Source: Candidatus Woesearchaeota archaeon
GTDB taxonomy: Archaea > Nanobdellota > Nanobdellia > Woesearchaeales > UBA11576
Assembly (NCBI GenBank): GCA_018668595.1
Contig: JABJCP010000031.1
Span: forward strand, 24,964 to 88,963
Reading direction: 5' to 3'
DNA length: 64,000 bases
Below are positions 8,578 to 9,467 of this stretch, one piece after another. Numbering within the stretch: position 1 is the first letter of the stretch; each line of letters starts with the position of its first letter. Made by a program: the position numbers and the translations under genes. The notes under the pieces are model-generated. The model ran no database searches. It had not been told where the DNA came from and saw only the letters and a program-made list of their open reading frames with translations.

Positions 8578-9120
8578 ATGCTAATTCCTTTTATAAACAA
8601 AAACAAAAAGTATTTAAAAGAAACCTATAAATCTAGTAAGATCATGAAAATAAACGAATTACAAGCAGGACAAGGAAAAATAGAAGTAGAATTAGCAGTT
8701 GTTGAAGTCAGTGACGTAAGAGAATTTGAAAAATTCGGAAAAACTGGTCGTGTAGCAAACGCTATTTGCAAAGATGAAACTGGACAAATCAAAATTAGTC
8801 TTTGGAATGAGCAAATCGATCAGGTTAAAATTGGCGACAGAATAAAAATTGAAAACGGCTATGTTAATGAATGGAAAGGTGAACTTCAATTATCAACAGG
8901 TAAGTTTGGAACACTTACTGTTTTAAGTGGAAGCGAACCAGTTAAAGAGAATACAGATGAAGGAGAGCATATCCTTACACAAGACGAGAAAACTGAAGAA
9001 GAAGTTGGCTTTGAATCTGGAGACAGTCCGAGTTTAGAAGAAAGTGAAACAGACGACGAAAAAAAAGAATCAGATGACGTTGACGCAGGCGGTCTTGAAG
9101 TAGAAGAAGAAAAGATATAA
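8578..9120 (+). CDS. Single-stranded DNA-binding OB-fold protein (RPA/SOSS-B-like)
   Basis: GKTGRVANAICKDETGQIKISLWNEQIDQVKIGDRIKIENGYVNEWKGELQLS plus acidic tail; start may be the internal ATG at 8644. Confidence 0.85.
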   Translation: MLIPFINKNKKYLKETYKSSKIMKINELQAGQGKIEVELAVVEVSDVREFEKFGKTGRVANAICKDETGQIKISLWNEQIDQVKIGDRIKIENGYVNEWKGELQLSTGKFGTLTVLSGSEPVKENTDEGEHILTQDEKTEEEVGFESGDSPSLEESETDDEKKESDDVDAGGLEVEEEKI

Positions 9121-9189
9121 ATATATCATCTTAACTCTTTAAACATACAATAACTACTATACTTTCGAAGTATTAATTTTTAATCACAA

Positions 9190-9395
9190 GGGGCAGTAGC
9201 TCAATCTGGGAGAGCACTAGTTTGCGTTTTTTTGCAAAGTGAAACTGAAGAATTTTTTCCAGGTTTGTGATCTGATGAGGCTCAAGCCAATGAATTTCAG
9301 AGATCTAGGTGTTCCGGGTTCAAATATTGGTTGTGGAAAAAGCTGCATACTTGCAAGCCATATCCTGCAACCTATTGAAAGTCCCGGCTGCCCCA
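9190..9395 (+). tRNA. tRNA gene with at least two introns (anticodon arm and T-loop); isotype unresolved, Trp(CCA) possible
   Basis: Acceptor GGGGCAG/CTGCCCC + A73; D-arm GCTC..GAGC; anticodon stem CTAG/CTAG; T-stem CCGGG(9314-9318)/CCCGG(9383-9387) split by ~57 nt; 206 nt total. Confidence 0.8.
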
Positions 9396-9467
9396 CTTCT
9401 TTATTTTTTTATAAAATGTAGATATAGAATTTAAACTAAAATAATAAAGTATAAACCAATTAAAATA

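Follow-up and report, generated by a model that had tools for sequence, protein, structure and literature searches.

The window, by which we mean the whole stretch of 64,000 nucleotides that was analysed, carries at 9190-9395 of its forward strand a gene for tRNA-Phe with the anticodon GAA, divided by three introns into four exons. The introns measure 23 nt at tRNA position 30/31, 52 nt at the canonical position 37/38, and 57 nt at position 59/60 in the T-loop. The features of the locus are as follows.

8578..9120, + strand: OB-fold-like gene (a putative fold), upstream of tRNA-Phe; synteny anchor
9158..9162, + strand: putative TATA-box-like TATAC, read from the sequence, some 28-32 nt before the 5' end of the tRNA
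9190..9220, + strand: exon 1, tRNA-Phe positions 1-30 (5' strand of the acceptor stem, D arm, first part of the anticodon stem); Rfam tRNA match
9221..9243, + strand: intron 1, 23 nt, 30/31; central helix CACT/AGTG, inner helix TTGC/GCAA
9244..9250, + strand: exon 2, positions 31-37, ACTGAAG; anticodon GAA at 9247-9249
9251..9302, + strand: intron 2, 52 nt, 37/38; central helix CTGA/TCAG; holds an element conserved among relatives
9303..9324, + strand: exon 3, positions 38-59 (3' strand of the anticodon stem, variable loop, 5' strand of the T stem and the greater part of its loop)
9325..9381, + strand: intron 3, 57 nt, T-loop 59/60; central helix TTCA/TGAA, outer helix GGG/CCC
9382..9395, + strand: exon 4, position 60 through discriminator A73
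9397..9409, + strand: putative terminator-like T-rich stretch, 3' of the gene, a reading of the sequence

Taking the introns out leaves a perfect 74-nt cloverleaf with stems of 7, 4, 5 and 5 pairs, and ARAGORN calls the joined exons, GGGGCAGTAGCTCAATCTGGGAGAGCACTAGACTGAAGATCTAGGTGTTCCGGGTTCAAATCCCGGCTGCCCCA, as tRNA-Phe(gaa) with every stem paired. The acceptor strands, GGGGCAG...CTGCCCCA, lie at 9190-9196 and 9388-9394, and the T arm is broken after TTCAAA. All four exons follow one another in order inside 206 nt, with no separate or reordered units, so the gene is neither split nor permuted. The broken anticodon arm first suggested tRNA-Cys(GCA); Phe(GAA) is by far the better fit, and the tRNA-Cys(GCA) gene sits elsewhere.

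Detection of the introns and their splice motifs

The gene was missed by ARAGORN run without introns, and by a scan of the entire window at the Rfam gathering threshold. A sensitive cmscan at the locus gave an RF00005 match that spans exactly 9190-9395 (33.9 bits against a gathering threshold of 29, E 1.6e-5), the alignment passing over the inserted stretches of the anticodon arm and T-loop. The exon boundaries come from a splice search, in which dynamic programming threads the locus through the tRNA-Phe consensus of relatives while the introns are scored for the bulge-helix-bulge (BHB) motif. The score rises from -1 with no intron to 57 with one, 80 with the best two, and 94 with three, and extra introns add nothing; the maximum over 100 dinucleotide shuffles was 16.

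Each of the three junctions has a central helix with all four pairs Watson-Crick. The motifs read CACT-AG|T ... AGTG-AA|A for intron 1, CTGA-AG|A ... TCAG-AG|A for intron 2, and TTCA-AA|T ... TGAA-AG|T for intron 3, and the observed BHB scores were reached by 1, 6 and 9 of 20000 mononucleotide shuffles, respectively. The inner helix of intron 1 is perfect and its outer helix weak, while in intron 3 the outer helix is complete and an inner helix is also present. Four features of an archaeal BHB-type tRNA intron are found here: the cloverleaf is restored, BHB motifs (a 4-bp helix between two 3-nt bulges that hold the splice sites) lie at the joints, introns are absent from the orthologous gene in relatives, and the genome encodes both the splicing endonuclease EndA and the ligase RtcB.

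An earlier note on this DNA, made by reading the letters, had seen a tRNA gene broken by at least two introns, one of them in the T-loop, with the acceptor, D and T stems recoverable upon their removal; the cmscan match, the splice score of 94 and the ARAGORN call on the spliced exons bear this out. The T-loop interruption of about 57 nt that it proposed is intron 3, and its suspicion of a third intron is confirmed by the splice scores. It was only partly right in two places. The 70-75 nt assigned to the anticodon arm agree with a total of 75 nt, but this total is made up of two introns, and the T-loop intron does have BHB ends, though as a full hBHBh' motif rather than the relaxed form. The anticodons it had considered, TTTGC near 9231 and TTCCA near 9258, were both wrong.

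It is possible to read the anticodon arm as holding one intron of about 75 nt, which would make two introns in total and give the tRNA another anticodon. Such readings do exist, with the intron placed after position 34, but they score about 15-17 points lower, break the anticodon stem, and have a weak central helix. In the same-genus genome G001, moreover, the exon CACTAGACTGAAG is contiguous. We consider this reading highly improbable.

The tRNA-Phe gene in relatives and the other tRNA genes of the genome

The genome is taken as woesearchaeal from a single gene encoded nearby: its GlyRS is 54-68% identical to those of Woesearchaeota, Pacearchaeota and Nanoarchaeota MAGs, the best matches being Woesearchaeota- and Nanoarchaeota-labelled. 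This agrees with the DPANN-like host that had been supposed for the multi-intron tRNA. The neighbourhood of the OB-fold-like gene and tRNA-Phe is kept in many genomes of the order, and it was used to locate tRNA-Phe in relatives. The mature tRNA-Phe of G001 is identical to the one described here save for one D-loop base, and its gene has introns at 20/21 and 37/38 only. Since the exons of G001 run unbroken across 30/31 and 59/60, two of the three joints are fixed independently of the splice search. At the syntenic locus of G002 and G006 (L016) the introns are at 20/21, 37/38 and 59/60, and G004, G005, G007 and G008, all of the same family, have no intron in tRNA-Phe. The inserts could in principle be an artefact of a chimeric read join, as this is a draft assembly in multiple contigs. 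Yet related sequence is found at the same sites in independently assembled relatives (the 37/38 element in nine genomes, the 59/60 intron in G002 and G006), and an artefact is barely credible.

Among 49 genomes whose syntenic tRNA-Phe was cleanly solved, 21 have no intron, 13 have one, eight have two, five have three, and two have four. The census took only solutions with all stems paired; multi-intron solutions that failed this, G079, G054, G071 and G075 among them, were excluded. Position 37/38 is used 18 times, followed by 59/60 (11), which is the commonest non-canonical site among relatives, then 4/5, 20/21 and 46/47 (4 each), 27/28 and 18/19 (3 each), 44/45 (2), and 25/26, 30/31 and 38/39 (1 each). 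The central helix scores at least 3.5 of 4 in 26 of the 34 non-canonical introns. The two four-intron genes are those of G058 (L088), at 4/5, 20/21, 37/38 and 59/60, and of G021 (L177), at 18/19, 25/26, 37/38 and 46/47; when they are limited to three introns or fewer, one stem is left largely unpaired and the scores drop by 12 and 22 points.

Two further observations concern particular introns. Acceptor-stem introns of 29-31 nt occur at 4/5 in the tRNA-Phe of G050 (L109), G092 (L093), G058 and G072 (L160); here the 5' leader participates in the BHB, and the central helix is perfect in the first three. The element in intron 2, at 9268-9306, is conserved in nine genomes as GATCT-GATGA-GGC..GCC-RATGA-..-CAG-AGATC. 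Within it the intron is base-paired to exon positions 38-42, there is a GATGA/RATGA internal loop, and two of the intron-exon pairs have changed on both sides between clades. A covariance model of the element also picks up, weakly, the intron at 37/38 in the tRNA-Cys of this genome (L010; 18.9 bits, E 0.08). A box C/D RNA was considered as the content of intron 2; by eye, a clean pair of C and D boxes was not seen.

The interruption of tRNA-Phe is far from a single case in this genome. The assembly (2.32 Mb, 45 contigs, 90.5% complete) has RF00005 matches for 14 tRNAs, and about 21 tRNA genes were recovered through T-arm patterns and splice-aware search. About 19 of these 21 are interrupted, only Pro(TGG) and Val(GAC) being intact, and together they hold at least about 25 introns, with the class II genes and one Thr-like gene tentative. 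More than one intron is found in Lys(TTT) (19/20 and 37/38), Arg(TCT) (19/20 and 29/30), Met(CAT) and Thr(TGT) (both 30/31 and 37/38), and the non-canonical sites across the genome are 19/20, the 20/21 region, 29/30, 30/31 and 59/60. The pair of introns at 30/31 and 37/38 that Thr-TGT (L009) and Met-CAT (L011) carry is also that of tRNA-Phe, which suggests that intron sites are preferred in common across isotypes.

The searches sampled loci around matches, and the D-arm pattern returned only Phe and Ala, so that the tRNA count is a minimum; the isotypes Leu, Ile, Glu, Trp, Tyr and Asp are missing from it. Two T-arm patterns, YGTTCRAWYCR and AGTTCRANYCT, gave no clear excess over controls, although some of their matches are tRNAs. 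The scarcity of intact genes is not a search bias, since intact genes are the easiest to detect. Standard tRNA search finds 9-20 tRNAs in several relatives that are at least 90% complete. For the present genome, G018, G020 and G021, which are 90-100% complete, standard detection gives 9-14, consistent with tRNA interruption throughout the order.

The gene could also be a pseudogene disrupted by insertions, as the earlier note had allowed, with a working copy in the unassembled part of about 10%; an assembly in 45 contigs does leave room for one. A second tRNA-Phe, intact or otherwise, was not found in the assembly by RF00005, the D-arm pattern, or BLAST of the mature tRNA. What argues against a pseudogene is that after splicing all stems and tRNA-specific bases are intact, that a valid BHB lies at each joint, that relatives have tRNA-Phe at the same locus, several of them with introns, and that most other tRNAs of the genome are interrupted as well. 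This makes it very unlikely.

The splicing enzymes and a possible order of splicing

For splicing there is one EndA gene, which lies outside the window and encodes a protein of about 176 aa, the length of a single-unit enzyme. Its catalytic residues Tyr, His and Lys are Y112, H122 and a Lys within the stretch STKKR; RtcB is also present in a single copy. The nearest solved structure is the catalytic subunit of the Nanoarchaeum equitans enzyme (3iey_A, E 2.5e-37), followed by the Methanocaldococcus jannaschii EndA (1a79, E 1.4e-30), with which residues 12-176 align near-colinearly with a gap of only one residue. An insertion of 11-18 residues of the CSL or ASL type is absent from that alignment. 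As judged from its sequence, EndA is of the alpha type and alpha4-like, and it may form a homotetramer. The reported correlate of the alpha4 type, that only canonical 37/38 introns occur, is not part of its definition and does not hold here. A K-P-G loop between the catalytic Tyr and His, VYDRG[VI]KPGEDHA[KR]W, is conserved in this EndA (L027) and its relatives (L054-L083), and on sequence grounds it is a candidate for altered substrate handling.

We put the probability at about nine in ten that this is a functional, single-copy woesearchaeal tRNA-Phe(GAA), made from one precursor of about 206 nt from which EndA would excise the three introns, leaving the exons for RtcB to ligate. The locus would be transcribed into that single precursor; EndA, perhaps as an alpha4 homotetramer, would recognize the BHB at each junction, and RtcB would presumably ligate what is left. 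Folding predictions suggest an order for these steps. In the full precursor the predicted probability of pairing is 0.07 for the intron 2 central helix and 0.02 for the anticodon stem, and without intron 1 these values rise to 0.74 and 0.82, respectively. The central helix of intron 1 has to compete with the D stem, its probability being 0.19 in the full precursor, and the intron 3 helix stays at 0.73 in all states. If these predictions are correct, intron 1 would leave first, its removal allowing the anticodon stem and the intron 2 BHB to form, and intron 3, which folds independently, may be removed at any time. A comparable dependence between closely spaced introns is known in other archaea (PMC8450103).

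Comparison with known endonuclease types and multi-intron tRNAs

It has been reported that the alpha4 and alpha2 endonucleases cleave only the canonical BHB, while non-canonical introns are permitted by the CSL- or ASL-bearing (alpha beta)2 and epsilon2 enzymes, and that intron diversity tracks these types (PMC4033280, PMC4090602, PMC12397907). Unless a second subunit has gone undetected, this rule does not hold for the present order. Splicing might indeed be carried out by a heteromeric endonuclease, as in N. equitans, whose second subunit is here too diverged or is unassembled. Among solved structures this EndA is nearest to a catalytic subunit from just such an enzyme, non-catalytic subunits can be poorly conserved, and at about 90% completeness the gene could have been missed. 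On the other hand, this EndA matches the N. equitans second subunit as well (3iey_B, 5.5e-16), so a comparable subunit should be detectable. EndA was found in 94 of 100 relatives, in nearly all of them as one copy; the few second matches, some at contig ends, were unchecked individually. In G020, which is 100% complete, and in the four-intron G021, which is 98% complete, a search for a second EndA returned only sub-threshold noise up to E 10. A heteromeric enzyme is therefore a serious but unlikely alternative. The other proposal, that a lone alpha-type EndA, lacking both a partner subunit and any of the loops known to confer specificity, gained a broad BHB specificity, and that introns then spread widely, up to four in one gene, in breach of the rule that ties their diversity to enzyme architecture, we regard as an even bet.

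Two of the solved enzymes bring systems close to this one. The M. jannaschii alpha4 EndA is near-colinear in sequence and also encoded by a single gene, but alpha4 is reported as canonical-BHB-only, whereas the order described here has many non-canonical introns. N. equitans and Nst1 share with it the closest solved EndA sequence (PDB 3iey) and BHB-type processing (PMC3655853). N. equitans, however, has split tRNAs, which are unnecessary here, and the second subunit NEQ261, and Nst1 has only two intron-containing tRNAs.

ARMAN-1 and ARMAN-2 (Micrarchaeota) also belong to the DPANN archaea. They are likewise ultrasmall archaea with multiple and non-canonical tRNA introns (PMC4033280, PMC12397907), but their endonuclease is a three-unit epsilon2 enzyme with an ARMAN-specific loop, and the single-unit EndA here has no comparable insertion. 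In the Thermoproteales the resemblance is in the genes themselves: a single tRNA gene can hold three BHB introns, only one of them at the canonical site and the T-loop included, and interrupted tRNAs occur throughout the genome. They average 0.84 introns per gene with a maximum of three (PMC8450103), and in Pyrobaculum islandicum the introns of tRNA-Pro are at 25/26, 37/38 and 56/57 (PMC4090602). Their endonuclease, in contrast, is the two-subunit (alpha beta)2 enzyme, while the order here is a DPANN lineage with one alpha-type gene.

Multi-intron tRNAs are therefore of a known kind, and what is new is the clade, the relatives with four introns, and the poor fit between these introns and the type of endonuclease. 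The four introns per gene in G058 and G021 exceed the published archaeal maximum of three. No survey of tRNA introns in DPANN archaea or Woesearchaeota was found in open-licence full texts, with bioRxiv preprints outside the scope. Widespread introns would explain the low tRNA counts that a standard search returns in these genomes, and the range from zero to three tRNA-Phe introns inside one family makes a natural series in which intron gain and loss can be measured. If the present picture is true, this order, in which a tRNA gene can hold as many as four introns and the endonuclease comes from one alpha-type gene, would directly contradict the coupling between endonuclease type and introns.
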